From NCBI GenBank assembly GCA_934552695.1, contig CAKTER010000020.1:1-14784 (forward strand): a DNA stretch of 14,784 bases, given 5' to 3'. The DNA is from an uncultured Eubacteriales bacterium (GTDB taxonomy: Bacteria; Bacillota; Clostridia; Lachnospirales; Anaerotignaceae). Below, one piece after another: positions 516-13,985 of this stretch. Below the pieces are notes generated by a model that saw only the letters and a program-made list of their open reading frames with translations, did not search any database and was not told the DNA's origin. The translations under genes and the position numbers were made by a program. The stretch's first letter is position 1. Each line of letters opens with the position of its first letter.

Positions 516-3227
516 ATGAGTAATGCACAACAGCCCCAGCGGCGGCCCGCCCCCCGCAAGCGCAAGCAGCGGAAGCGCAAACGCCTGACCCCGGGCAGAA
601 TCATTCTGCGTACCATTCTTATTGTCATTATCGTGGCCATTTTCGCCATCGCCGGCGCCTTACTGGGCGCTTACATGGGGATTGTGGACTCGGCCCCCAC
701 CATGAATACCGACGATGTGGTTCCCGAAAACTACACCTCTATCGTTTACGACTCTGCCGGAAAAGAAATCGACCGGCTCCACGGCGAGGAAAACCGGGAA
801 TATGTCCAGCTGGATCAAATCCCCGAAAACCTGCAAAAAGCCGTGGTCTCCATCGAGGACGAGCGCTTCTACGAGCATAACGGCATCGACCCCAAGGGCA
901 TTTTACGGGCTTTGATGATTAACATCCAAACCCACAGCTTTTCGCAAGGGGCCAGCACCATCACCCAGCAGCTCATTAAAAACGAGGTGCTAACCAGCGA
1001 AAAGCAGCTGACCCGGAAAATCCAGGAGCAATACCTGGCCGTCCAACTGGAAAAGAATCTGACCGAAAAGCTGGGAAGCAAAGAGGCTGCCAAAAACTAT
1101 ATTTTGGAGCTGTATTTAAACACCATGAGCTTAGGCCACGGCCTGAACGGCGTCCAGGCCGCCTCTCTGTACTATTTTGGCAAGAACGTCAGCGAGCTGA
1201 CTCTGGCGGAGTGCGCCACGCTGGCTGGCATTACCAAAAACCCGTCCTACTACTCCCCCGTCCGCTTCCCCGAGCACATCACTGAGCGGCGGGCCACCGT
1301 TTTGCAAAAAATGGTGGATTTGGGCTATATTACACAGGCCCAGGCCGACGAGGCCAACGCCACCGACGTGACCTCCCTGTTGGCCAGCGGCGATACCACC
1401 GTAGACCAGGCCAAAGCCGCCAACCACACCTATTTTGTGGACCAGGTGATTTTGGATGTCGCCAACGCCCTGATGGAAGAAAAGGGCATGAGCAAGGCTC
1501 AGGCTTACAACATGATTTACAGCGGCGGCCTAAGCATTCATACCACCCTGGATCAAAGCATCCAATCGGTGCTGGATGCCTCCTATCAAAAGGCCGAGCT
1601 CTTCCCCCCCAGTGGCCGGGACGAGCTTTCCGCCACCTATACCATTTCGGTCATGGATACCACCACCGAGGAGCAATCCCACTATTCCCGCTCCAAAATT
1701 GTGTCCAATCAGGAGGAGGCCGAGGCCTTCGCCCAGTCGGTGCAGGACGAGCTGATTACAGACGGGCACCGGCTGGTAGCCGATAATTTACAGGTCACCT
1801 ACTCTTTGCAATCGGCTATGGTCATCATGGACCAAAGCACCGGCTATGTCAAAGCCCTCATCGGTGGCCGGGGCGAAAAGCAGGGCGACCTGGTCTATAA
1901 CCGGGCCACCCAGGCCCTGCGCCAGCCCGGCTCCTGCTTCAAGGTGCTGGCAGCCTATGCCCCCGCTTTGGATTTGGGGCTTTTAACCCCCGCCTCCTCG
2001 ATTAAAGACGAGGCCTTTACCGTAGGCGGCTGGAGCCCTCGGAACTGGTGGGGCAGCAAGTACCGGGGCTATTGCACCGTGCGGGAAGGCATCCGGGATT
2101 CTATGAACATTCTGGCTGCCAAAACCATGGCGCTGGTCACCCCCGAACGGGCTTACGAATACCTTCTCAACTTTGGCTTCACCTCGCTGGTCAAATCCCG
2201 GGAGGTCAACGGCCAAATCTTCTCCGACATCAACTACTCCACCAGTTTGGGCGGGCTGACCGACGGCGTTTCGGTGCTGGAATTAACGGCGGCCTATGCG
2301 GCCATTGCCAATGGCGGCGTATACAACAAGCCCACCACCTACACCGCCGTGTACGACCATAACGGCAACCTGTTGCTCAGCTACAACAACGAGTCCCACC
2401 GGGTCATCCACGAAAGCGTGGCCTGGCTGCTTACCGATATGATGAAAGACGTTATCACCGGCGGCGGCAGCGCTACCGGGCGGCTGGCCAACTTTACGCA
2501 AAACTCCATGCCCATTGCGGGGAAAACCGGCACCACCACCAACGACTACGACCTAACCTTTGCCGGGTACACCCCCTACTATACCGCCGGGATTTGGCTG
2601 GGCTACGACCAGCCCAAAACCATGAAGTACGATAAGAGCTATCACCTGCTGCTGTGGCGGGATGTGATGGATCAGCTGCACAACAACCTGCCCCGGGTAG
2701 AGTTTGAGCGCCCGGCCAATATCAGCTCGGTCACGCTTTGCTCGGTGTCCAACCAAATGCCCTCCGACTTATGCAGCCAGGATTATTACGGGTGCAAGGT
2801 CGTTACCGACTACTACGCCACCGACGTGGGGGCCGGTATTTCCAGCGAGCCCTGTACCCTCCACAAAACCTTTACCATCGACAATACCACCGGCTATTTG
2901 GCCGGGGACGATTGTCCCGCCGAGTACCGGCAGGAAGTGGTACTGGCTGTCGATGAAGAGGGCAAAATCCTCAACATGCCCGATTCCTTCGATGAAAACG
3001 GGGAAATCCTGAAAATCGTACTGGAGCCCTGTACCATTGACCACAGCGATTATCACGCCCCCGACTCCGGGGTAATCGGCGGAGAGGAAGAGCCGGAGGG
3101 CGGCGACCCGACCGACCAGCCCGACCAGCCCGACCAGCCCGATTCGCCCGACCAGCCGACGCCGGCCGTTCCTCAGCCGGAGCCGGCGCCCGACCCCTCC
3201 GATGACTATATTCCCATCGGCGGATAA
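516..3227 (+). CDS. ponA: Class A penicillin-binding protein (PBP1-type glycosyltransferase/transpeptidase)
   Basis: This 903-residue bifunctional enzyme polymerises lipid II glycan strands and cross-links their peptides outside the membrane. The start at ATG 516 is chosen because AAGGAGGA (503-510) sits just upstream; a TTG at 492 is in frame but lies before that site. A very basic cytoplasmic tail (1-28) precedes one membrane helix (about 29-53). The GT51 domain shows EDERFYEHNG (114-123, catalytic Glu114), GASTITQQ (145-152), RKIQE (167-171) and LELYLN (197-202). The transpeptidase domain shows SCFK (Ser473 nucleophile, Lys476), SMN (529-531) and KTGT (670-673). The C-terminal segment carries six cysteines (742, 753, 760, 780, 800, 839) and a Pro/Asp-rich tail. 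All catalytic motifs are intact. The class is certain; the ponA symbol is by analogy with the Bacillus subtilis class A PBP. Confidence 0.95.
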   Translation: MSNAQQPQRRPAPRKRKQRKRKRLTPGRIILRTILIVIIVAIFAIAGALLGAYMGIVDSAPTMNTDDVVPENYTSIVYDSAGKEIDRLHGEENREYVQLDQIPENLQKAVVSIEDERFYEHNGIDPKGILRALMINIQTHSFSQGASTITQQLIKNEVLTSEKQLTRKIQEQYLAVQLEKNLTEKLGSKEAAKNYILELYLNTMSLGHGLNGVQAASLYYFGKNVSELTLAECATLAGITKNPSYYSPVRFPEHITERRATVLQKMVDLGYITQAQADEANATDVTSLLASGDTTVDQAKAANHTYFVDQVILDVANALMEEKGMSKAQAYNMIYSGGLSIHTTLDQSIQSVLDASYQKAELFPPSGRDELSATYTISVMDTTTEEQSHYSRSKIVSNQEEAEAFAQSVQDELITDGHRLVADNLQVTYSLQSAMVIMDQSTGYVKALIGGRGEKQGDLVYNRATQALRQPGSCFKVLAAYAPALDLGLLTPASSIKDEAFTVGGWSPRNWWGSKYRGYCTVREGIRDSMNILAAKTMALVTPERAYEYLLNFGFTSLVKSREVNGQIFSDINYSTSLGGLTDGVSVLELTAAYAAIANGGVYNKPTTYTAVYDHNGNLLLSYNNESHRVIHESVAWLLTDMMKDVITGGGSATGRLANFTQNSMPIAGKTGTTTNDYDLTFAGYTPYYTAGIWLGYDQPKTMKYDKSYHLLLWRDVMDQLHNNLPRVEFERPANISSVTLCSVSNQMPSDLCSQDYYGCKVVTDYYATDVGAGISSEPCTLHKTFTIDNTTGYLAGDDCPAEYRQEVVLAVDEEGKILNMPDSFDENGEILKIVLEPCTIDHSDYHAPDSGVIGGEEEPEGGDPTDQPDQPDQPDSPDQPTPAVPQPEPAPDPSDDYIPIGG
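3114..3158 (+). repeat. Five 9-base repeats coding Asp-Gln-Pro in the PBP tail
   Basis: GACCAGCCC occurs three times in tandem, followed by GATTCGCCC and GACCAGCCG, all in frame. They encode DQP-DQP-DQP-DSP-DQP at residues 867-881. Such Pro-rich acidic tails on class A PBPs are disordered and vary in length through slippage. Confidence 0.85.
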
Positions 3228-3234
3228 TCCCTTT

Positions 3235-3265
3235 GACCCGGACGCCCTATGTCCGGGTCTTTTTT
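3235..3265 (+). terminator. Rho-independent terminator of the PBP gene
   Basis: GACCCGGAC (3235-3243) pairs perfectly with GTCCGGGTC (3251-3259) around a 7-base loop, followed by six T (3260-3265). It begins 8 bases after the PBP stop codon. Confidence 0.93.
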
Positions 3266-3282
3266 CCCCTTTCCGGCCCCAC

Positions 3283-3313
3283 AAAAAGCGCCCTGCTTTC
3301 GCAGAGCGCTTTT
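3283..3313 (-). terminator. Terminator of the opp-peptidase operon (possibly bidirectional)
   Basis: On the minus strand AAAAGCGC plus CTGC pairs with GCAG plus GCGCTTTT, with one mismatch, around a GAAA tetraloop (3297-3300). A run of T follows at 3287-3283. It lies 22 bases after the stop of the carboxypeptidase gene. On the plus strand the same stem ends in four T and could back up the PBP terminator. Confidence 0.88.
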
Positions 3314-3335
3314 CTTTGCGTTTCTTCGTAGATTC

Positions 3336-4613
3336 TCAGCCCTTTTGTTCCGCCAAAAACTCCATAACGGCAATCAGCGCATAGGCGTGGCGCAACGACC
3401 ATTGCTCCAGCCGCTCCAGCGGCACCTGGTCGTCGTTGTTGCACCGGCCTTCCACCGAATTGGAGGATTGCAGGGAGAACGACGGGCAAAAATACTTGTA
3501 GTAGGCCCAGCCCTCAAAGGTGGCGGTGGGTTTCCCGGTCTCGGCAAAGCAATCCAGCTCGGGCGGGAAGCTCACCGGGGCGGCGGTAAAGGTGCCGCAG
3601 CCGGGATGATTGGCCCGGAAGGCTTGGGAATAGATATTGGCCACCACGTTGGCATAGTCATAGCTGGGGCCATCGGAGGGGTCGCCATCGAACAGCAGGG
3701 TGTCCTCGGTAATAACCGAAGCCGAGTCGTAAACGAACAGGGCGGCGGGCACCACGGCGTCGATAAACTTCATGGCCGCCTGGCTTTCGTTTTCACTGCC
3801 GGCATAGGGGCCGTGGTAGGTGCTGGATTCGGGGATAATGTTGGACACACCGTACACAAACTCCTCTTTCCAGTTCCAGGGGAAGTTCCGGTTCAGGTCA
3901 ACGCCGTTGTGGTTCTTCCGCAGATAGTGCGGGGTGCCGTTCACCGTCTCCTCCCGCACGTCGATGTTGATGGTGGGCAGCATCGCCAGGCCCACCTTTT
4001 CCAGCAGGTCGGGGCGCATGTGGATAATGTGCCGCACCGCCCGCACCAGCAGCTCGGGGCCGGGCTCGCTGGCGTGTACCGCCCCGGCCAAGGCCACCAC
4101 CTTGTCCCGGTTGCCAATGTGCAGGGCGTGCATGGGCCGGTGCATAGTGGTTTCGCCGTATTGCTTCATTTCGATGAGGCCCGGATATTCGGCGGTCAGC
4201 TTCTCCAGCTCCTCCACCGTCCGCTTGTGGCTCCACCACACCTCGGGGTCCCGGACCCGGCAGCCCACAGGGCCCAAAACCGTGCCGTCCTCGCCCTGGG
4301 AAACCACCCAATACACATAGCAATGGCCTATTTCCGCCCCCTCGTCCAGGTATTCGCAAAAGGTATAGGAATAGGGCAGCTTGCCTTCAAAAATACAGGT
4401 CACGCCGGGGTCGGTCAACTTCATGTTGTCAATGTACTCCACCCAGTTGCCCATGGCGTCCCCGGCCATACCAAAGCTGAAGCTGATGTCATCGGCCTGC
4501 TTGCGGAAAATTTTAACCGGCGCATTGGGGTCTTCGCCGGGCATTCCCTGCTGCATAAAATAAACCCGTACCTTCCCGGCTACCGCCTGGGTATACAGTT
4601 TGCCTTTTAACAT
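3336..4613 (-). CDS. M14-family zinc carboxypeptidase homologue, cytosolic, with Asp at the usual third zinc-ligand position
   Basis: This 425-residue protein is the last gene of the operon. Its ATG at 4613 follows GAGGAAGG (4617-4624), 21 bases after the dipeptidase gene ends. There is no signal peptide or membrane helix. Residues 1 to about 120 look like a beta-rich N-terminal domain, and the M14 catalytic domain follows. Visible M14 landmarks are HASE (His180, Glu183, zinc ligands), LRKN (Arg232, compare carboxypeptidase A Arg127), DLNRNFP (Asn241, Arg242, substrate carboxylate binding), the GSENES block (272-277) and Glu367 in TFEGW as the probable catalytic Glu270. At the third zinc ligand, normally HS, the sequence reads VYDSAS with Asp296. 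M14 enzymes remove C-terminal residues from peptides or trim murein peptides. Next to a peptide importer it probably processes imported peptides. The family is firm; substrate and activity are not. Confidence 0.85.
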   Translation of the reverse strand: MLKGKLYTQAVAGKVRVYFMQQGMPGEDPNAPVKIFRKQADDISFSFGMAGDAMGNWVEYIDNMKLTDPGVTCIFEGKLPYSYTFCEYLDEGAEIGHCYVYWVVSQGEDGTVLGPVGCRVRDPEVWWSHKRTVEELEKLTAEYPGLIEMKQYGETTMHRPMHALHIGNRDKVVALAGAVHASEPGPELLVRAVRHIIHMRPDLLEKVGLAMLPTINIDVREETVNGTPHYLRKNHNGVDLNRNFPWNWKEEFVYGVSNIIPESSTYHGPYAGSENESQAAMKFIDAVVPAALFVYDSASVITEDTLLFDGDPSDGPSYDYANVVANIYSQAFRANHPGCGTFTAAPVSFPPELDCFAETGKPTATFEGWAYYKYFCPSFSLQSSNSVEGRCNNDDQVPLERLEQWSLRHAYALIAVMEFLAEQKG

Positions 4614-4634
4614 GATCCTTCCTCTTTTCCGCCC

Positions 4635-5777
4635 TTACTTCGCCCAGGTCTGTTCAAAAATACGCATCATGTTGCCGCCCAAAACCTTCTTTACGTCCTC
4701 GTGGCTAAAGCCCCGCTTCAGCATATGCTCGGTGATGTTGGGCAGGTTGGCGGTGCTCATCAGGCCCTCGGCGGCGGCGCAGAACTTGCCCCGGCCTTCC
4801 TCAATGCCCTTAATGTAAGCGCAGCCGTACTTGTCGTACAGGTTCTTGTGGAAGGTATTCAGGTTCATGGCGTCATCCCGGTCATAGCAGCCGGCCTGAC
4901 CATTGGAATCCAGGCCAATGCCAACATGGTCAATGCCCAGCATATCCGCATAGTAGGCCAGAATATCCACATAGTTCTCCACGGTGGGGAAGTGCTTCCC
5001 ATCGTACAGCAGAGGCAGATAGGCGGTAGCGCAAACCACACCGCCCCGCTCGGCGCACTTCTTCAGGGGCTCGTCGTCAATGGTCCGCAGGTGCGGATAC
5101 AGGGCAGAAGGATTCTGGTGGCTAAAAATCATGGGCTTTTCCGCATAATCCATAGCCTCCAACGCAGACTGGCGGCCGCAGTGGCTCAAGTCCAGCGTAA
5201 TGCCGTTCTTTTCCATGGCCCGAATCAGCACCTTGCCCTGCTCGGTAATGCCGGCATCCGTCCCGCTGGCACAGCCGTCGGCAGCAAAGGTCCGATGGTT
5301 GTAAGCAATCTGCATAACCCGCAGGCCCATTCTGGCCCATACTTCCAGCGAAGCCTCCAGGTCGGCATGATAGACAAAGTCGCAATGCTGAGCGCCAAAA
5401 ATGATGCCGGTCTTGCCTTCCCGCTTGGCCTGATAAATGTCCTCCACGCTGTGAATCATCATCAGCTTATCGGGCGAACGGTGTACGGCGTTGTGCATCC
5501 CAATCAGGTCGCCCATCACCTTGCTGGGGCTGGGGCTGTATACGTCACCCAGGGTAAAGTTCATGGCCGTAGCGCCGGACTGCTCCAGCTGCCAGTTGTA
5601 CTCGTGCAGGAAGAAGGAACACATATCCAAAACAATGGACTCGTCGTGCAGCTTCCGGGCCTCGGGAGAAATGGCTTCGTTGGTGGCGATTACCGCCGCT
5701 TTCAGGTCGGGGTCGTCGTTGCACCAGTAGTTCAGCTGATACTCTCCGGCCAGTTTCCACATTTCATCCATAGTCAT
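4635..5777 (-). CDS. M19-family (renal/membrane dipeptidase-like) hydrolase with altered first metal site
   Basis: This 380-residue protein starts at ATG 5777, eight bases after AAGGAGG (5786-5792). It has no signal peptide, so the family name 'membrane dipeptidase' does not describe its location. The M19 TIM-barrel landmarks are DLSHCG (His199), IFSHQN (His220), Arg231 in PHLRTIDDE, the AERGGVV block (242-248) and Asp290 in HVGIGLD. The usual N-terminal DGHxD motif reads DMCSF (51-55), so His and Asp are Cys53 and Phe55. The usual bridging Glu appears as Gln130 in FGAQHCD. M19 enzymes cleave dipeptides, often with a D-residue, using two zinc ions. I recall a subgroup with Gln at the Glu position, so this may be a known branch with a one-metal or different site. 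In this operon it would act on imported peptides. Confidence 0.85.
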   Translation of the reverse strand: MTMDEMWKLAGEYQLNYWCNDDPDLKAAVIATNEAISPEARKLHDESIVLDMCSFFLHEYNWQLEQSGATAMNFTLGDVYSPSPSKVMGDLIGMHNAVHRSPDKLMMIHSVEDIYQAKREGKTGIIFGAQHCDFVYHADLEASLEVWARMGLRVMQIAYNHRTFAADGCASGTDAGITEQGKVLIRAMEKNGITLDLSHCGRQSALEAMDYAEKPMIFSHQNPSALYPHLRTIDDEPLKKCAERGGVVCATAYLPLLYDGKHFPTVENYVDILAYYADMLGIDHVGIGLDSNGQAGCYDRDDAMNLNTFHKNLYDKYGCAYIKGIEEGRGKFCAAAEGLMSTANLPNITEHMLKRGFSHEDVKKVLGGNMMRIFEQTWAK

Positions 5778-5811
5778 TGCAAAAACCTCCTTAAGCTTAA
5801 AGATAGTTGGG

Positions 5812-6846
5812 TTATTTCACAGGCTCTGCCACAGCGGCGGAGTCTGGCATGGGAACCGTAATGTCGTCGTGCAAATGGCAAGCCACCGCATGGTTGGCGT
5901 CCACCTGGCGCAGCTTGGGCTTTTCTGTCCGGCAGCGCTCGGTAGCATACTTGCACCGGCCGCAGAAGGGGCAGCCCGGGGGCGGGTCGATGGGGCTGGG
6001 CACGTCGCCCTGCAAAATATCCTGGCTAAATTCGCCCTCGGCGCCAATCACGGGGATGGCCTTGATTAACGCCTCGGAATAGGGGTGCAGGGGCTTCTCA
6101 AACAGAGAATCCCGGTCGGCAACCTCCACCACGTTCCCCAAGTACATCACCAGCACCCGGTCGCACATGTGCTTCACCACCGCCAGGTTATGGGAAATGA
6201 ACACGCTGGACAGCTGATATTTCTTCTGCAAATCCTTCATCATGTTCAAAATTTTGGCCTGAATGGATACGTCCAAGGCCGAAACCGGCTCGTCGCACAA
6301 CAGCAGCTCCGGCTGGAGGGCCAGGGCCCGGGCAATGCCAATCCGCTGCCGCTGGCCGCCGGAAAACTCGTGGGGATGGCGGCTATACGCCTCGGGAGGC
6401 AAGCCCACCTCGTCCATCAGCTCCAGCACCCGCTGCTTCCGTTCCTCGGGGGTGCCAATCTTGTGAATCCGCAGCGGCTCCTCAATGCAGCGGCCCACGG
6501 TAAACTTGGGATCCAGCGAGGAATAGGGGTCCTGAAATACCAGCTGGACCTTCCGCTTAAACACAAAGTCCTCCTGCCGGCTCAGCTTGTTAATGTCTTT
6601 CCCCTCAAAGGTGATGGCGCCTTCGGTGGGGGTCAGCAGCTTTACCATCAGCTTGCCGGTGGTAGACTTGCCGCAGCCCGACTCGCCCACAATCCCCAAG
6701 GTTTCGCCTTTGTACACCGAAAAGCTCACATCGTCCACAGCATGGAGGAGGCGGGTCTTTTCAAACAGGCCCTTGTTATCCTTAACCGGATAATACATTT
6801 TCACATGGGAAAATGCCAGCAGTTCCTTGCGGTCATCCATACTCAT
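5812..6846 (-). CDS. oppF: Oligopeptide/dipeptide ABC transporter ATPase, OppF/DppF type
   Basis: This 344-residue ATPase powers peptide import on the cytoplasmic face, paired with OppD. It has Walker [10 protein letters not shown] (54-62), Q-loop around Gln105, signature FSGGQRQR (161-168), Walker B LLLCDEP (181-187), D-loop SALD (189-192) and switch His219. The C-terminal oligopeptide-transporter region contains PLHPY (252-256) and a cysteine set C292, C295, C298, C305 and C323. The spacing CX5CX6CX17C equals that in the partner OppD and may hold an iron-sulfur cluster. The ATG at 6846 overlaps the oppD stop by four bases (ATGA), so the two are translationally coupled; GGAGG inside the end of oppD serves as ribosome site. 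The choice between Opp and Dpp names cannot be made from sequence alone. Confidence 0.93.
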   Translation of the reverse strand: MSMDDRKELLAFSHVKMYYPVKDNKGLFEKTRLLHAVDDVSFSVYKGETLGIVGESGCGKSTTGKLMVKLLTPTEGAITFEGKDINKLSRQEDFVFKRKVQLVFQDPYSSLDPKFTVGRCIEEPLRIHKIGTPEERKQRVLELMDEVGLPPEAYSRHPHEFSGGQRQRIGIARALALQPELLLCDEPVSALDVSIQAKILNMMKDLQKKYQLSSVFISHNLAVVKHMCDRVLVMYLGNVVEVADRDSLFEKPLHPYSEALIKAIPVIGAEGEFSQDILQGDVPSPIDPPPGCPFCGRCKYATERCRTEKPKLRQVDANHAVACHLHDDITVPMPDSAAVAEPVK

Positions 6847-7814
6847 TCCTCATACCTCCAGCAACGAATCTGGTGCCCCGGCTCCGCTTCCCGCAAGGGC
6901 GGGCGTTCCGCCTTGCAGCGCTCGGTGGCAAAGGGGCACCGGGGCGAAAACCGGCAGCCCACAGGGAAATCGCTGGGCGGCGGCACCGTGCCCTTTATGT
7001 TATACAAATACTCCGGATCCTCGTCCAGCCGGGGGATAGACTTTAAAAGCCCCTCGGTGTAGGGATGCAGAGGATGTGCAAAAATCTCCTTCACCCCGGT
7101 GGCCTCTACAATCTGCCCGGCGTACATCACAACCACCTTTTCGGCCATTTTGGATACCACGCCAAAGTCGTGGGTAATCAAAATAATAGAGGTCCCGGTC
7201 TTTTTCTTCAGGTCCACAATCAGGTTCATAATCTGGGCCTGAATGGTCACGTCCAACGCGGTCGTCGGCTCGTCGGCAATCAGAATCTTGGGGTTACAGG
7301 CCAGGGCAATGGCAATCATCACCCGCTGCCGCATCCCGCCGGAAAGCTGGTGAGGGTAGTTGTTAAAAAAGGTCTCGGGGGAGGAAATCCCTACCAGGCC
7401 AATCAGCTCAATGGCCTTCGCCTTCGCCTCGGCCCCCTTCAGGCCCTGATGGTACTTTAAGGATTCCATAATTTGCTTGCCCACGGTATACACCGGGTTC
7501 AGCGAGGTCATGGGCTCCTGGAAAATCATCGAAATGTCGTTGCCCCGAATCTTTTCCATTTCCTTTTCGGAGCAGGCCAGCAGGTTCTTGCCCCGGTACA
7601 AAATCTCGCCGCCGGTAATCTCCCCGGGGGGTGTTTCAATCAGCCCCAAAATCGACAGGGAGGTTACGCTTTTGCCGCAGCCGGACTCGCCTACAATGGC
7701 CAAAATCTCGCTTTCGTTCAGCGAAAAGTCTACGCCCTCCACCACCGGCAGGGCGCCCTTATCCGAGTGGAAGCAGATGTGAAGGTCCTTTACTTCCAAA
7801 ATGGGTTCACTCAT
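6843..7814 (-). CDS. oppD: Oligopeptide/dipeptide ABC transporter ATPase, OppD/DppD type
   Basis: This 323-residue ATPase is the second nucleotide-binding subunit of the importer. It has Walker A GESGCGKS (42-49), Q-loop around Gln99, signature LSGGMRQR (157-164), Walker B ILIADEP (177-183), TALD (185-188) and switch His215. The C-terminal peptide-transporter region has HPLHPYTEG (247-255) and cysteines C287, C293, C300 and C318. The related DppD of a thermophilic Thermoanaerobacter-type bacterium is reported, as I recall, to bind a 4Fe-4S cluster in this region. ATG 7814 is eight bases after AAGGAGG (7823-7829). The last base of that site overlaps the first base region of the oppC stop, and oppD overlaps oppF downstream. 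It is of normal length and fully intact. Confidence 0.94.
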
Positions 7815-7827
7815 TGCCTCCGCCTCC

Positions 7828-8661
7828 TTACTTATTCTTCAGCTTGGGATCCAGCGCATCCCGAATCCCATCGCCAAACAAACTAAAGCCCAAAACCACC
7901 AGCGTAATGCCCACGCCGGGAACGATGGAGGCCCAGGGGAACTTCATCAAAACGTCCTTGGCCTGGTTCAGCATGGCGCCCCATTCCGGGTTGGGCGGCT
8001 GTACGCCGATGCCCAGGAAGGACAGGGCCGAAGCCGTCAGGATGGCATAGCCCAAAGCCAGGGTAAAGTCTACAATAATTACCGAAACCACGTTGGGGAT
8101 AATGTGCTGCATAATAATGCTTAAATCCGAGGCCCCCATGGTATGGCAGGCCTGCACGTATTCCCGCTGCTTTACGCTCATCACGCTGCTGCGCACCAGC
8201 CGGGCGCACTTGGGAATGGAATACAGGGTAATCGTCAGCATGGTGTTGGTGGTGCCGTTGCCCAAAATCGAGATGATGACGATGGCCAAAAGCAACCCGG
8301 GGAAGGCCAGCAGAATATCAATGATGGCCGTAATGATGTTATCCACAATCCCGCCGAAATACCCGGCGCAAACCCCCAAAATAATCCCGGCCAGCTCGCC
8401 CAGCAGTACGCCGAAAAAGCTAATCAAAAGCGACACCCGGGCGCCGTATACCATACGGGTGGCAATGTCCCGGCCCAGGTTATCCGTCCCCAAGGGGTGG
8501 CCCTTCATGGGCAGCCGATACACCAGGTTCAGGTCTTGGCCGTTGGGATCGTACTTGCAAAAGAAGGGGCCCACCAAGGCGATGAGAATAAAGGCCAAAA
8601 CCACAAAGAAAGCGACCACGGCAATTTTCCGCCGGGAAAAGTTTTTCACAAATTCCTTCAT
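7828..8661 (-). CDS. oppC: Peptide ABC transporter permease, OppC/DppC type
   Basis: This 277-residue inner permease subunit has a first membrane helix at about 12-32 and an extracytoplasmic segment with HPLGTDNLGRD (55-65), typical of the DppC/OppC family. Further helices lie at about 75-100, 108-133, 190-215 and 243-262. The cytoplasmic EAA coupling loop is at 168-188 (EYVQACHTMGAS), where the ATPases dock. The end reads GDGIRDALDPKLK, the family's usual C-terminus. ATG 8661 follows AAGGAGG (8669-8675), which overlaps the oppB stop codon, so translation is probably coupled to oppB. It lacks a long N-terminal extension and is slightly short for the family but complete. Confidence 0.94.
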   Translation of the reverse strand: MKEFVKNFSRRKIAVVAFFVVLAFILIALVGPFFCKYDPNGQDLNLVYRLPMKGHPLGTDNLGRDIATRMVYGARVSLLISFFGVLLGELAGIILGVCAGYFGGIVDNIITAIIDILLAFPGLLLAIVIISILGNGTTNTMLTITLYSIPKCARLVRSSVMSVKQREYVQACHTMGASDLSIIMQHIIPNVVSVIIVDFTLALGYAILTASALSFLGIGVQPPNPEWGAMLNQAKDVLMKFPWASIVPGVGITLVVLGFSLFGDGIRDALDPKLKNK

Positions 8662-8673
8662 GCTTTCGCCTCC

Positions 8674-9594
8674 TTAGTGATATTTAATCCGGGGATCCAC
8701 CACGCCATAAATGACGTCGGTTACGGTGTTTACAATAACAAAGGTAGCCGTCAGTACCAAAACCGCTCCCTGTACCACCGGGTAATCCCGGTTCAATACG
8801 CCGTCTACCAAATACCGGCCCATGCCCGGAATGGAAAATACCGTTTCTACCAGCGTGGAGCCGGCCAGCAAAATGCCAAACCGCAGGCCAATGCTGGTAA
8901 TTACGGGGATAATGGCATTCTTTAACGCATGGCCAAATACAATGATTTTCCGGGGCACGCCCTTAGCCCGGGCCGTCCGAATATAGTCCTGACTCAGCAC
9001 ATCCAGCATAGAGGAGCGGGTCACCCGGGTAATATCCCCCGCCGAGTAAAAGCCCAAAATACAAATGGGCAATACATAGTGCAGAGGTGTTTTTACGCCC
9101 ATACTGGGGAAAATGCCCAGCTTTAAGCAAAAAACCGACATGCTGATAATGGATAAAAAGAACAACGGCGTAGAAACCGCCAGCAGCGAAACCGCACTTA
9201 CGATATTGTCGATGGCCTTGTTGTGCCGTACCGCCGACAAAATCCCGAAGCAGATGCCCAGCACCGAGCCTACGGTAACGCCGCCCACAGCCAGCTTAAA
9301 GGTCACAGCGTATTTCGTAGCGATTTCCTTCGCCACCGGCCGTTTGCTGTAAATGGAGGTGCCCAAATCCCCCTGAAAAACGCCCTTAATAAAGTTCCAG
9401 TACTGCACCGGCCAAGGCTGATCCAGACCCAGTCTGGCCCGTTCGGCAGCCAGCGTTTCGGCCGGAACATTTAGGCCCAGCATATTTTTGACCGGGTCGC
9501 CCGGTACAAGACGTACTAGCAAAAAAACCAGCACTGAAATGGCGAAAAGCGTAATCAGCAGCTGGATAAGTTTTCGGATGGTGTATTTTAACAT
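8674..9594 (-). CDS. oppB: Peptide ABC transporter permease, OppB/DppB type
   Basis: This 306-residue permease pairs with OppC to form the membrane channel. The ATG at 9594 is chosen because GGGAGG lies five bases upstream; an in-frame TTG at 9618 would add eight residues but lies before that site. Helix 1 spans about 9-29. The periplasmic-facing loop has RLVPGDP (28-34) and GDLGTSIYSKRPV (75-87), a hallmark of DppB/OppB. More helices lie at about 100-122, 132-155, 171-187, 228-247 and 274-297. The EAA loop DYIRTARAKGVP is at 203-214. The C-terminus DPRIKYH is typical. It lies downstream of oppA, separated by a large hairpin, so its expression may be lower than that of oppA. Confidence 0.94.
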   Translation of the reverse strand: MLKYTIRKLIQLLITLFAISVLVFLLVRLVPGDPVKNMLGLNVPAETLAAERARLGLDQPWPVQYWNFIKGVFQGDLGTSIYSKRPVAKEIATKYAVTFKLAVGGVTVGSVLGICFGILSAVRHNKAIDNIVSAVSLLAVSTPLFFLSIISMSVFCLKLGIFPSMGVKTPLHYVLPICILGFYSAGDITRVTRSSMLDVLSQDYIRTARAKGVPRKIIVFGHALKNAIIPVITSIGLRFGILLAGSTLVETVFSIPGMGRYLVDGVLNRDYPVVQGAVLVLTATFVIVNTVTDVIYGVVDPRIKYH

Positions 9595-9608
9595 GGGAAC
9601 CTCCCTAC

Positions 9609-9653
9609 CTCTTTGCAAATCCGGGAGGGGTTTCCCCCTCCCGGAGCAAAGAG
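9609..9653 (-). promoter_or_regulatory. Large intercistronic hairpin between oppA and oppB
   Basis: In the transcript CTCTTTGC (9653-9646) pairs with GCAAAGAG (9616-9609). Inside it CCGGGAGGGG pairs perfectly with CCCCTCCCGG (9644-9621) around a GAAA tetraloop (9634-9631). The two stems of 8 and 10 bp are separated by a small internal loop. No long U-run follows, so it is not a classical terminator. It starts 11 bases after the oppA stop and ends just before the oppB ribosome site. Such hairpins after binding-protein genes usually stabilise that message and keep permease output lower; applied here this is inference. Confidence 0.75.
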
Positions 9654-9664
9654 CCGGTTTTTAA

Positions 9665-11275
9665 TTACTTCAAAATGGTAGCGTGTTCAAAGGACTGCTC
9701 GCCAATGGTATGCACAGTCACGTTCTGCAGCTTCTCGGTGCGGGCGGTGGTGTAGTTCATGCCCCACATCCAGATGCCGGCAGGGTCTTCCCGGTACAGG
9801 ATTTCGCCAGCCCGGGCATAGTATTCCTGACGCTTGGCCTGGTCGGTCTCGGCCGCCGCAGCGTAAATCAGCTCGTCCACTTCCGCATTGGAGTAGAAGC
9901 CATAGTTCCGGATGTTGGTGCCGGTGGTGGAGGTGGTGAACAGCCCCCGCAGAGCGCTGTCGGCGTCACCGGTCATGGAACCGAGGCCCATGATGAAGAT
10001 GGGCCAGTTAAATTCTTCCGGCGTAATACCGTCTACATAAGGCAGGAAGGAGTTCCACTCCAAAACCTCAATCTCGGCGTTTACGCCAACCTCGGCCAGC
10101 TGAGCCTTAACAATCTCGGCCATTTCCACGCCCTTCTCATACCGGGGAGTGGTTACAATCTTGGTGTCAAAGCCATCGGGATACCCGGCCTCGGCCAGCA
10201 GCTCCCGGGCCTTGTCCTGATCCTGTTCAATAATCCCCAGGTTGGCATAGCCAAATACGCCTTCGCCCACGACGTCGGTCGCCTGGTGTGCGGTATCGCC
10301 ATACAGGGCGTCCAAAACCGCCTGCTTGTCAACGGCATAAACCAAAGCCTGACGAACCTTGGTGTTGGAAATGATGGGGTCGTTGCAGCCAAACTGGAAG
10401 ATACGGAAGCCGTTGTTGTTGTGGGTTTCGGCTACGATACCCTCGGTGGCCCGCAGAGTGTCCAAATCCTCCTGCGTAAACTTCTCGATGATGTCAACCT
10501 CGCCGGTCTGCAGGGCAATCAGCCGGGCAGAGCTGTCGGGGATGGTCTTAAAGTTCAGGTACTTGGTAGGAGCCTCGCCACCCCAGTAATCGGGGAAGCT
10601 TTCCATGCACAGCTCGTTGTTAAAGTCCCAGGATACCAGCTTGTAGGGGCCGGTGCCGTTTTCGGCTTCCAGCTCGGTAGCAATATCCAGGCCATACTTT
10701 TCGATGGTGGCGTCATCCATAATGGAGAACACAGGGTCGGTCATCACAGCACTCAAAGCACCGTAGGGCTCGCTGGTGATGATGTTCACGGTGTAGTCGT
10801 CCACCTTTTCAAAGCTGGAAATGGCGGAGAAGCCGGTAGCGGTACGGCCCAGCTGATACTCCTTCGCCCGTTCAAACGTAGCGATAACGTCATCGGCAGT
10901 CATTTCGGAGCCATCGTGGAACTTTACGCCATGACGCAGATTAAAGGTCCAGGTCACATTGTCGTCGGCACAGCTCCAGCTTTCGGCCAGCAGGGGCTGA
11001 GGGCCTTCGTCGGAAGCCATCAGCAGGGTCTCGTACATCTGCCGCAAAACCTGCTCCGAGTTATTGTCGTTTTCCGCCTGAGGGTCCAGGGTGCTGGTGT
11101 CTACGTTAATCCCGTAGTTAATGGTATCGCCGTATTCGGCTTCGCCCTGAGTTTCGTCGGTCGCTGCATTGTTGCTGCTGTTGTCGTCCGAAGTATCCTT
11201 CGAGCCGCAGCCAGCCAGCAGGCCGGTGGTGCAAGCCACTGCCAGGAGCAGGCTTACAAACGCTCTTTTCTTCAT
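9665..11275 (-). CDS. oppA: Peptide ABC transporter solute-binding lipoprotein, OppA/DppA type (family 5)
   Basis: This 536-residue lipoprotein captures peptides outside the membrane and hands them to OppB/OppC. ATG 11275 follows AAAGGAGG (11284-11291) by eight bases; a farther in-frame start would lie before that site. The signal peptide MKKRAFVSLL begins a hydrophobic run ending in the lipobox LAGC, with Cys23 as the lipidated residue. A hydrophilic Asp/Asn/Ser-rich linker follows (about 24-48). The mature domain shows family 5 features: NVDTSTLDP (57-65), TADDV, GTGPYKLVSW and a C-terminal WMWGMNY segment. It is first in the operon, right behind the promoter. Family 5 binds di- to oligopeptides, nickel or glutathione; the neighbouring peptidases favour peptides. 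Ligand length cannot be told from sequence. Confidence 0.93.
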   Translation of the reverse strand: MKKRAFVSLLLAVACTTGLLAGCGSKDTSDDNSSNNAATDETQGEAEYGDTINYGINVDTSTLDPQAENDNNSEQVLRQMYETLLMASDEGPQPLLAESWSCADDNVTWTFNLRHGVKFHDGSEMTADDVIATFERAKEYQLGRTATGFSAISSFEKVDDYTVNIITSEPYGALSAVMTDPVFSIMDDATIEKYGLDIATELEAENGTGPYKLVSWDFNNELCMESFPDYWGGEAPTKYLNFKTIPDSSARLIALQTGEVDIIEKFTQEDLDTLRATEGIVAETHNNNGFRIFQFGCNDPIISNTKVRQALVYAVDKQAVLDALYGDTAHQATDVVGEGVFGYANLGIIEQDQDKARELLAEAGYPDGFDTKIVTTPRYEKGVEMAEIVKAQLAEVGVNAEIEVLEWNSFLPYVDGITPEEFNWPIFIMGLGSMTGDADSALRGLFTTSTTGTNIRNYGFYSNAEVDELIYAAAAETDQAKRQEYYARAGEILYREDPAGIWMWGMNYTTARTEKLQNVTVHTIGEQSFEHATILK

Positions 11276-11277
11276 GT

Positions 11278-11355
11278 CTACATCCTCCTTTGTGTTGCTG
11301 CCCACCCGGTGTTACTTTCCTTTTGAAACCTCTGTGCAACGTTCCGTTCGGGCAC
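11278..11355 (-). CDS. Possible 25-residue leader peptide ahead of oppA
   Basis: A GTG at 11353-11355 is preceded by GGGGGAGG (11360-11367) at a four-base spacing. It opens a 25-codon frame whose TAG (11278-11280) ends two bases before the oppA ATG, so the oppA ribosome site lies inside it. It would begin about 46 bases into the predicted opp transcript. The peptide is hydrophilic and Arg/Gln-rich (starting MPERNVAQRF) and has no recognisable family. It could couple translation to oppA or simply be chance, since the G-run favours ribosome-site look-alikes. Confidence 0.25.
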   Translation of the reverse strand: MPERNVAQRFQKESNTGWAATQRRM

Positions 11356-11407: not shown

Positions 11408-11436
11408 ATTATATTCCGGTTTTTGAAACGTGTCAA
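11408..11436 (-). promoter_or_regulatory. Perfect-consensus sigma-A promoter of the opp operon
   Basis: On the minus strand TTGACA (11436-11431), a 17-base spacer and TATAAT (11413-11408) match the vegetative consensus at all twelve positions. The start would fall near 11401, giving a leader of about 125 bases before oppA. A promoter this strong is expected to need a repressor, and the operator at 11423-11436 covers its -35 box. Confidence 0.92.
11423..11436. promoter_or_regulatory. LacI-family-type operator O1 over the opp -35 box
   Basis: TTGAAACGTGTCAA is a 14-base palindrome with one mismatch (G at 11432) and a central CG. The six bases at 11431-11436 are also the opp -35 box, so an occupied site would block RNA polymerase. 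The same sequence, perfect form TTGAAACGTTTCAA, recurs upstream of the regulator gene at 11759-11772. Confidence 0.7.
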
Positions 11437-11758: not shown

Positions 11759-11772
11759 TTTAAACGTTTCAA
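11759..11772. promoter_or_regulatory. LacI-family-type operator O2 in the regulator leader
   Basis: TTTAAACGTTTCAA has a central CG and differs at one position from the perfect palindrome TTGAAACGTTTCAA. It shares 12 of 14 bases with O1. It sits between the regulator promoter and its start codon, as expected for autoregulation. Confidence 0.65.
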
Positions 11773-11810
11773 ATTTCCAAATTTTGTTGTTGCGGAAAGC
11801 GAGGACTCCT

Positions 11811-13985
11811 ATGGCGACCATGAAAGACATTGCAAAGCTGGCTGGCGTTTCCCAGGGAACGGTGTCCAACGTGCTGAACGGCCACTGCCACGTCAGCACA
11901 GAAAAAATGACCGCCGTGCTGGAGGCCGCAAAGGCTCTGGGCTATCAGCGCAACTCCCAGGCCCAGCAGCTGCGGAAAAATTCCGTCCTCTCTTCCCAGG
12001 TCGCTGTGGTTTTGCCCAACATCGACGAGCAGCAATACTCCGACTTTTATACCGTCATCCGGGACCACTTTCAGGAACAGGGGATGATGGTCAGCGGCTT
12101 TACCACCGAGGACCAGCCCGAAAACGAGCGCCGGGTGCTGCGGCAGCTGGCTACCGTCCGCCCCACCTATGTGTTTACCATTTCGTGTTTGGAGGAGGAC
12201 GACGGCCATTATGCCGACCTGAAGGCCATCGGCACCACCCTGGTCTTTGCCGGCCACACCCCCGACTACGCCCAGGACTGGGTCACCTTCGACTGTATCC
12301 GGGACGCCCGGAAAATCGGGGAACACATTGTGGCCCAAAGCCCCAAACGGGTACACATTTTGGCCATTCAGCACATCTTCCCCCGGGACCGGCAATTTTT
12401 GGACCTGCTGCTAAGCATTTTGCAGCTCAACGGCATCCCCTGCAACTACGACACCGCCAATACCGCCACCTGCTATCCGGTGGCTTTCGACCTCATCAGC
12501 CGGGAGCAGCCCGAGGTGCTGCTGTGTATGGCCCCCTACCTGAGCCGTAGCGCCAAGCTGGCCTGCGAGGTATTGGATAGCCCCTGCAAGCTGTACCACT
12601 TTGCCTACGGCCTGCGGCTGCCCGGCCAAAACGAGCATAACTACTATTATAATTACGGCCAGCTGGCCCGGGAAAGCCTGCGGGTGGCCCAAACCCGCAA
12701 GCAGTCTCCCCAAGCCCCGGCCCAACGGGTGTTTTTAAGCGCCGATGGCTTTTTGCCGCCCCATATTGCGCCAGAAATCCACCGGGACTGTACCCTGCAA
12801 ATGCTTTCCATTAAAAGCGACGCCAACGATGCCCTGCGGCGGATGTCCGCCGGGTTTACCAAAAAGACCGGTATCGGCTTAAACATCGTCACCCTGCCCC
12901 CCAACGAGCTGGACGAAATCTTAAGCCAGACCGCTCCCGGCATCCTGCAAGACTTCGACCTGTTGCGGATTGGCCGTCCCGATAACGTGGGCCTGCACCA
13001 ATGGCTCCACCCGCTGGATGCCGACTGCCACCGGCACCTGACCCATACCATGTTCCCCGAAGCCGTAGCCGCCCTATCCCAGTGGGATAAGGGCGTCCCC
13101 TATGCCGTGCCCTTCGACGTGGGCACGCAGCTGCTGGTCTACCGGCAGGACCTGTTCGAGGACCCCATGGTAAAGCGCCGGTACTACGAGCAGTACCGCA
13201 CCCAGCTGTGCCCTCCCAAGGATTATCAGGACTTCAATCAGGTAGCGGCCTTTTTTACCCGCACCCTAAACCTGCATTCCCCGGTGGACTACGGCACCTC
13301 CCTGCCCCTTGGGGCCAACATCAACATCCTGGCTCACTTCCTGCTGCGCTACGATTTTTATTTGCGGCAGTCTGCCCTGCCCGAGGGGGGGCACTTCGAT
13401 TTGGATGCGGCCCGTCAAGCCATCGAAAACCTGTGTCAGCTTTCGGCCTTTTCCACCCGCAGCAGCGAGTCCCGGGAGATTGGCGCCGATGTGACCGGAG
13501 CCTTTGCCCGGGGCGAGGTCGCCATGATTATCGGCCACTCCAACCACTCCAACCAGCTGCTGGACATTGTAAAAAACTCCCATACGGGCCGGATAGGCTT
13601 TAGCAGCGTCCCCGGCGGCTCCTGTATTTTGGGTGGCGCTTCCCTGGCCATTACCCGGAGCACCCGGGACTTTGAGGCGGCGCTGGAATGTATCCATTGG
13701 TTCTGCGGCTGGGAACAGGCCAATCTGTTCTGCCTGCTGGGGGGCTCCACGCCCCATCAGGCCGCTTACCTGGACCCCCGGCTGGTACGGTACTTCCCCT
13801 GGCACGCCCAGTTTGGGAAAAGCCACTTCAGCCCTCGGATGAACCAGCTGTACCGGGAATATTCCATCCCCCTGCTCAGCTCTGTGATTGGCTCCGCTGT
13901 GCGGAATACCATTTTGGGCGCCATCACCATTCAAGACTGTATGCAGCAGCTGGCCAAACAGCTGCCCCAGTGCCGTATCCACTAA
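11811..13985 (+). CDS. LacI-family transcriptional regulator fused to a family 1 solute-binding-protein domain
   Basis: This 724-residue protein starts at ATG 11811, five bases after GAGGA (11801-11805). Residues 3-24 (MKDIAKLAGVSQGTVSNVLNG) are a LacI helix-turn-helix. The hinge has AQQLRK (51-56), with Leu54 at the place of the DNA-intercalating Leu of PurR. A LacI-type periplasmic-binding-like domain follows (about 62-316). From about 326 a second sensor begins (CTLQMLSIKSDAND) that resembles family 1 extracellular sugar-binding proteins: GLHQWLHPLD (394-403), VPYAVPFDVGTQLLVYRQDLF (429-449), ARGEVAMI (566-573) and ILGGASLAI (606-614). Ordinary LacI regulators have about 330-350 residues. 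There is no signal peptide, internal stop or internal ribosome site, so it is one cytoplasmic chain. It lies divergent to the opp operon and probably controls it through O1 and O2. Repressor action is inferred from the O1 position. Confidence 0.88.
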   Translation: MATMKDIAKLAGVSQGTVSNVLNGHCHVSTEKMTAVLEAAKALGYQRNSQAQQLRKNSVLSSQVAVVLPNIDEQQYSDFYTVIRDHFQEQGMMVSGFTTEDQPENERRVLRQLATVRPTYVFTISCLEEDDGHYADLKAIGTTLVFAGHTPDYAQDWVTFDCIRDARKIGEHIVAQSPKRVHILAIQHIFPRDRQFLDLLLSILQLNGIPCNYDTANTATCYPVAFDLISREQPEVLLCMAPYLSRSAKLACEVLDSPCKLYHFAYGLRLPGQNEHNYYYNYGQLARESLRVAQTRKQSPQAPAQRVFLSADGFLPPHIAPEIHRDCTLQMLSIKSDANDALRRMSAGFTKKTGIGLNIVTLPPNELDEILSQTAPGILQDFDLLRIGRPDNVGLHQWLHPLDADCHRHLTHTMFPEAVAALSQWDKGVPYAVPFDVGTQLLVYRQDLFEDPMVKRRYYEQYRTQLCPPKDYQDFNQVAAFFTRTLNLHSPVDYGTSLPLGANINILAHFLLRYDFYLRQSALPEGGHFDLDAARQAIENLCQLSAFSTRSSESREIGADVTGAFARGEVAMIIGHSNHSNQLLDIVKNSHTGRIGFSSVPGGSCILGGASLAITRSTRDFEAALECIHWFCGWEQANLFCLLGGSTPHQAAYLDPRLVRYFPWHAQFGKSHFSPRMNQLYREYSIPLLSSVIGSAVRNTILGAITIQDCMQQLAKQLPQCRIH

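Follow-up and report, generated by a model that had tools for sequence, protein, structure and literature searches.

The window, by which we mean the whole 14,784-nucleotide stretch of DNA analyzed here, encodes a regulator that joins a LacI-type DNA-binding domain and a LacI/PBP1-like module to a complete MalE-type solute-binding module. This protein probably acts locally to repress the divergent opp–M19–M14 operon under the control of a ligand, with the MalE-like module as the likely sensor and the LacI module as a scaffold. The regulator has many relatives with the same architecture, which generally lack the canonical LacI effector residues and, in part, share an operator overlapping a −35 box; these two features, together with the linkage to M19 and Opp genes and a changed pocket in the clade of the window regulator, are what is new here.

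Domain organization of the regulator

The regulator gene and its modules were assigned as follows.

11811..13985, forward strand: regulator coding sequence, 724 aa, ATG start with GAGG directly 5′ of the ATG
11811..11981, forward strand: LacI helix-turn-helix (HTH) and hinge helix, residues 1–57 (PF00356, E 3e-14)
11988..12776, forward strand: LacI/PBP1-like module, residues ~60–322, without canonical effector residues
12777..13982, forward strand: complete MalE/CUT1-type solute-binding module, residues ~323–724 (profile match and structure comparison)

An in-frame TTG at 11784 is a possible alternative start of the open reading frame. The HTH scored 53 bits against PF00356, for which the curated cut-off is 27. 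None of the Pfam PBP1 models matched the window protein (P0001) at E 0.001, and the middle module was instead called by profile match: the P0001 profile aligns residues 2–297 to CcpA with an E value of 3.7e-41. The predicted structural model also has a complete PBP1-like fold behind the HTH.

The original prediction had placed a normally exported binding-protein fold at residues 320–724 of a transcription factor. Profile searches with this part matched a complete MalE-type (CUT1) module, and in the structure comparison solely binding-protein chains aligned over it among the 50 alignment rows listed, the LacI chains appearing in a separate list. Folded alone and without an alignment, the module had a pLDDT of 34. 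The protein starts with the HTH; inspection by eye revealed neither a signal peptide nor a lipobox, and no SBP_bac_5 domain was matched at E 0.001. At the level of sequence, the three-module architecture is thus confirmed, as is the presence of a normally exported fold on a transcription factor.

LacI proteins are the textbook case of a regulator derived from a binding protein. Regulators joining an HTH with a solute-binding fold are already known. Btr/YbbB of Bacillus subtilis is an AraC-type transcription factor with a binding-protein domain; both its HTH and its binding-protein class differ from those of the window regulator. The accessible part of PMC13060122 describes SgrR and DsvR as transcription factors composed of an HTH and an SBP_bac_5-type solute-binding domain. 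They provide a precedent for the principle, but, as described there, they have two parts and a domain of the SBP_bac_5 type, whereas the window regulator has three parts and no SBP_bac_5 match. CUT1/MalE-type proteins such as 5iai, 6dtq (MalE3), 1eu8 (TMBP), and SmoF are exported, and the window regulator carries an HTH in the place of their signal peptide. Among the titles and abstracts listed in our literature searches, none describes a LacI plus MalE-type family, which does not in itself prove that the family is unpublished.

Occurrence and naming of the fused family

A three-part reading frame could arise if a sequencing error joined two genes, and the original prediction had named this as a way in which it could be wrong. 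The chance of this is negligible, and the explanation was rejected, because the fused architecture recurs in relatives: it was found in 20 of 24 homologues, in 59 of 79 genomic loci, and in 46 of 5,426 complete Escherichia coli genomes, which refutes a merging error for the family. The 20 homologues, which include the window protein, came from a protein search with 24 matches and have all three parts in 715–747 aa. The 79 loci were kept from at least 554 relatives of any coverage that were obtained by scanning genome contigs with an alignment as query; the same scan with a single protein as query gave no matches. Loci were counted as near full length, as was the window itself, when the profile match covered at least positions 80–660.

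Fused regulators occur in Bacillota, Spirochaetota, Calditrichota, and Pseudomonadota. A relative is present in 51 of 72,556 plasmid records, and 48 of these 51 are from Escherichia. The copies in the 46 E. coli genomes, counted at ≥95% DNA identity to one plasmid copy, are located on plasmids in 44 cases and on chromosomes in two.

Similar, uncharacterized database entries, which the original prediction had mentioned, do exist among the homologues and annotated relatives, mostly under names that describe the C-terminal half. Among the 120 relatives listed (of 351), 42 were named (counted by hand): 34 as “extracellular solute-binding protein,” as in an annotated E. coli plasmid example, and two as “multiple sugar transport system substrate-binding protein.” Three names refer to the LacI half, and three are hypothetical. 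In the JGI names of two relatives (P0047 and P0119), both halves were recognized automatically. The second half of the fused protein thus hides the regulator in annotation, and the family is mostly misnamed; since most members are filed as a transporter part, local regulators are missed.

In a tree of MalE-like modules, a single branch with a support of 99 separates 84 fused from 18 stand-alone modules. This topology, from a tree that carries long-branch warnings, is in keeping with a single fusion. Four proteins (P0023, P0024, P0025, and one encoded at 9656–10888 of locus L072) are stand-alone MalE-like proteins of 404–411 aa that, by eye, lack a signal peptide; judging from their sequences, they may be related to the fused module and reside in the cytoplasm. 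In one metagenome assembly (L061), the fused gene appears as two overlapping frames (5316–5933 and 5899–7464), with the operator described below still upstream.

The divergent opp operon and its predicted operators

The adjacent genes, which had been read as a peptide importer, indeed encode OppABCDF and, in addition, a dipeptidase of family M19 and a carboxypeptidase of family M14, divergent from the regulator.

9665..11305, reverse strand: OppA-type substrate-binding protein (PF00496), judged by eye to be a lipoprotein, start probably at 11275
8674..9618, reverse strand: OppB-type permease (Pfam)
7828..8661, reverse strand: OppC-type permease (Pfam)
6843..7814, reverse strand: OppD-type ATPase (Pfam)
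5812..6846, reverse strand: OppF-type ATPase, above the cut-off of the NF008453 dipeptide ATPase model
4635..5777, reverse strand: M19 dipeptidase, by eye without a signal peptide
3336..4613, reverse strand: M14 zinc carboxypeptidase (Pfam)
11408..11436, reverse strand: sigma-70 type promoter of the opp operon, TTGACA-17-TATAAT, 12 of 12 consensus positions
11423..11436, reverse strand: predicted operator 1, TTGACACGTTTCAA, covering the −35 of the opp promoter
11759..11772, forward strand: predicted operator 2, TTTAAACGTTTCAA, starting 52 bp 5′ of the regulator ATG

Approximately 130 N-terminal residues of the M14 carboxypeptidase (3336–4613, reverse strand) have no Pfam assignment. A promoter search of the stretch returned two promoter-like sites (0.5 expected).

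Both predicted operators are CG-centered near-palindromes, and both lie in the 505 bp that separate oppA from the regulator. No other site in the window has two or fewer mismatches to TTGAAACGTTTCAA; 0.03 such sites are expected, and two were found in none of 200 shuffled sequences. Because the TTGAAACGTTTCAA consensus was derived from the sites themselves, we also ran a pair test that does not use a consensus; a pair of similar CG-centered near-palindromes in the gap occurred in none of 2000 shuffles.

CG-centered, even palindromic sites near promoters are a trait that the window regulator shares, by sequence, with LacI, CcpA, and PurR, as are the HTH, the hinge helix, and the PBP1-like module. 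The accessible part of a survey of LacI regulators (PMC4052901) gives a central CG for the sites of 1173 of 1303 regulators; in the accessible main text, the word “peptide” was not found. The window regulator differs from LacI, CcpA, and PurR in that the canonical effector residues are absent and a whole MalE-type module is added, and it is linked to peptide import.

The position of operator 1 also bears on the mode of control. PurR works with a corepressor, and CcpA regulates in both directions, so that the LacI family offers precedents for modes other than inducible repression. That the window regulator would be an activator or corepressor-dependent regulator of the opp operon nevertheless seems improbable, since the −35 overlapped by operator 1 belongs to a promoter agreeing with the consensus at all 12 positions, and a promoter of this quality needs no activator. 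Inducible repression is the mode that we favor.

Distribution of the operator across the family

As an independent test, we searched other genomes with the window-derived consensus, using 100 shuffles per locus. At 17 of the 55 non-window loci, a set that includes close kin such as L022/L026, L023/L028, and L014/L024, the best upstream match had a shuffle p ≤ 0.01. The 350-bp regions before regulators contain 21 sites in 19,361 bp, as opposed to 25 sites in 1,006,244 bp elsewhere, which corresponds to an odds ratio of 43.7.

The exact asymmetric form TTGACACGTTYCAA, the first six bases of which are a −35 box, was found in 31 copies in 30 of 106 sequences (two of which, L028 and L083, represent one place). 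A −10 matching at least 5 of 6 positions at a distance of 15–18 bp follows 14 of the 31 copies, compared with 62 of 664 other TTGACA hexamers in the same sequences. The next reading frame after TTGACACGTTYCAA is a labeled importer, GDPD, or metallo-β-lactamase (MBL)-fold gene in 16 of the 31 cases (in L007 at a distance of 1.4 kb), oppA in the window, and the regulator itself once (L054); the rest are unlabeled or were not tabulated. For the window, the automated list of reading frames gave an antisense frame in place of oppA. Among full-length loci, 23 of 60 carry the exact sequence and 37 lack it.

We also searched 15 whole genomes that had been picked because of their fused regulators. They contain 14 exact copies of TTGACACGTTYCAA in 13 genomes (two genomes have none), and the distance to a fused-regulator frame is at most 320 bp for all 14; the reversed-pattern control gave one. 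Judging from these 14 copies, the fused proteins seem to regulate locally, each through one principal site. Two of the genomes encode two fused paralogues: in G004 (Hungatella hathewayi, locus L009), at C1:1292574 and C1:1881677, there is a single operator copy, and in G005 the paralogues on C9 and C51 each have their own exact operator.

The evidence for a second operator at a constant distance upstream of the regulator is suggestive: matches of at least 10 of 14 positions were found 20–39 bp upstream at 9 of 55 loci, compared with 7 at 80–99 bp and 7 at 160–179 bp. To the extent that the operator is common to the family, it directly predicts the targets of many members.

The putative sensor module

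The accessible part of PMC10647483 names Arg197 and Asp274 of LacI among the residues forming hydrogen bonds with IPTG. The window regulator has Phe196 (codon 12396–12398) at the position equivalent to Arg197 and Ala265 at the position equivalent to Asp274, the register to LacI numbering being our own reading from the R-x-x-G motif. At the aligned columns, 23 of the 27 ordinary LacI proteins carry the arginine and 18 the aspartate; of the 79 fused proteins, none has the arginine and five have the aspartate. The control set of 27 was obtained from 30 rows by removing three fused genes that were truncated at the end of a contig; since four and nine of these controls lack the arginine and the aspartate, respectively, the canonical effector residues are common but not required in the LacI/GalR family. 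When a slippage of up to two columns is allowed, the counts become 26 of 27 versus 31 of 79 for arginine and 22 of 27 versus 14 of 79 for aspartate, which makes the contrast weaker, yet it is still there.

Pairwise identity among 68 non-redundant sequences averages 57% in the HTH, 21% in the PBP1-like module, and 30% in the MalE-like module. As the effector residues are absent and the MalE-like module is the better conserved of the two, we infer that the LacI module serves as scaffold and relay and that sensing resides in the MalE-like module. Two options had been left open in the original prediction, namely inputs from two ligands or a single ligand combined with a structural module; these data favor the second, with the LacI sensor as the structural part, and speak against the first.

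An arrangement with two sensors, in which the PBP1-like module responds to an unusual effector through other residues, the MalE-like module to a second one, and both signals are integrated, is unlikely in our judgment, although it accounts for several observations. The PBP1-like fold is complete in both profile match and model, several relatives score PF00532 or PF13407, and residues such as E106 (99%) and D161 (87%) are conserved in this module in 75 rows outside the window clade. The LacI pocket could hold something via other residues, given that an arginine lies within two columns in 31 of the 79 fused proteins. Set against this are the near absence of both effector residues at their aligned columns and the fact that the PBP1-like module is the least conserved part of the family proteins. 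We therefore retain the MalE-like module as the probable sensor.

The pocket of the MalE-like module

In the window regulator, codon 388 (12972–12974) encodes Gly instead of a pocket Asp, and codon 558 (13482–13484) encodes Gly instead of Trp. Position 388 aligns, by our own count on the 1eu8 alignment, with Asp70 of TMBP-type proteins, a pocket residue that touches the sugar in these proteins. The accessible part of PMC7949145 states that Asp80 of LpqY contacts glucose and that its equivalent in a Thermus protein, Asp70, has been implicated in closure. Position 558 is a putative pocket site that was compared by conservation rather than tied to a known ligand contact. Outside the clade of the window regulator, position 388 is Asp in 68 of 73 rows and position 558 is Trp in 60 of 73; inside the clade, neither residue occurs in any of the 11 rows (position 388 is Gly in four and Asn in seven). 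The description of the module as of sugar-binding type thus holds for its MalE-type fold, but a sugar ligand is doubtful, as the pocket Asp and Trp are absent in this clade.

The 11 rows with the changed pocket form one clade with an SH-aLRT of 100 in a quick tree made without bootstrap. Four relatives were found at E 1e-60 in 400 genomes of one family, among them L108 and L109, whose regulators are 30–31% identical to that of the window and 69% identical to each other. Both face genes for M19, OppA, OppB, OppC, OppD, and OppF, with the same operator as in the window in between. Their M19 proteins are 46–47% identical to the M19 of the window; the M19 gene comes first in these two loci and near last in the window, the gene partnership being the same. 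The M19–Opp linkage is thus present in all three of the 11 clade members with a readable importer context, namely the window, L108, and L109; the other eight are P0003–P0009 and L008. The simplest account of these sequences is that the pocket change coincided with the move of the regulator to peptide import. Since the 11 rows belong to one clade, the change in the pocket and that in the context occurred jointly, once or a few times, and their association is a correlation rather than independent evidence.

Loss of Asp388 and Trp558 may also reflect lost binding instead of a new ligand, which is the main alternative to a rebuilt pocket. The MalE-like module of the window clade would then have no ligand and would be structural or contact another protein (for example the importer), while the regulator answers to something else. 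The absence of both residues in 11 of 11 rows fits such a loss, as does the stem branch of the window clade, which is long at 1.29 changes per column. We nonetheless think it has a rather small chance of being correct, as the module is complete, residues conserved throughout the family (D383, P434, R445, D447, and W664) are present, and four members of the window clade are 72–75% identical over their full length. Binding of a ligand by the changed pocket remains the reading that we prefer.

In the window clade, the effector would most likely be an imported dipeptide or a breakdown product of it. In the proposed mechanism, a LacI-type dimer without ligand would sit on operator 1 and keep RNA polymerase off the opp promoter, while a dimer on operator 2 would limit synthesis of the regulator itself (autoregulation), perhaps with looping. 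When dipeptides or their products accumulate in the cytoplasm, they would be bound by the C-terminal MalE-like module. The LacI/PBP1 module, which would no longer have an effector site and would serve as a dimerization scaffold, would relay the Venus-flytrap closure of the MalE-like module. The resulting shift of the scaffold would make the HTH pair leave the operators, so that the importer and the peptidases are made.

For the family as a whole, we tentatively entertain a wider view, to which we give somewhat less than an even chance: a large, mostly misnamed family of one-component regulators abandoned the LacI effector site, moved sensing to a captured MalE-type importer protein, and kept one operator at the −35 of the controlled promoter as importer and pocket changed, the sugar-type pocket being rebuilt for dipeptides in the window clade. 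A second binding protein seems to have been added and to have taken over sensing, which would mean that domain capture can rewire allosteric switches. The modular design, with one DNA site and an exchangeable MalE-like sensor, could serve for biosensors.

Gene neighborhoods across the family

Neighbors were grouped in a hand-sorted table covering up to seven genes per side, using Pfam labels of cluster representatives or, failing these, sequence starts. The 59 loci fall into the following groups, given with the number of loci carrying the exact TTGACACGTTYCAA: Fe-type ABC importer and/or GDPD phosphodiesterase, 19 loci (GDPD in 15 and MgtC in 8), of which 12 carry it; MFS transporter (PF03825) with an MBL-fold enzyme, seven loci, of which four; ribose-type importer or enzymes that commonly accompany it, 16 loci, of which one; MalFG-type importer, eight loci, of which two; and no group, nine loci, of which three. 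A search of 394 genomes of the order yielded three relatives at E 1e-45, including the new loci L110 and L111, both of which adjoin Fe-type importers (sequences read by eye).

In L001, L003, L006, L013, L016, L022, L025, and others, an Fe-type permease, ATPase, and substrate-binding protein occur together with GDPD (with DUF4996). Some Fe-type/GDPD loci also carry MgtC, and the MBL-fold enzyme is found in other groups. The Fe-type importer, GDPD, and MBL neighbors suggest that some members of the family have phosphodiesters or phospho-sugars as ligands.

At locus L008, the divergent gene beside a sister-clade regulator is a 95-aa fragment at the contig end (1–285, reverse strand), with an operator and a perfect −10 in between. 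By eye, the fragment reads like an M28 aminopeptidase, without a significant match: it had no Pfam match, a homologue search excluding longer proteins gave just its own record, and one weak match was to an M28 peptidase (E 5); the fragment was left out of the evidence. In E. coli (NZ_CP063488.1, locus L104), a plasmid-borne cassette at 2848–8175 consists of MgtC, MFS, and MBL hydrolase genes facing the fused regulator; the latter is annotated as “extracellular solute-binding protein,” and an exact operator is located at 5726–5739.
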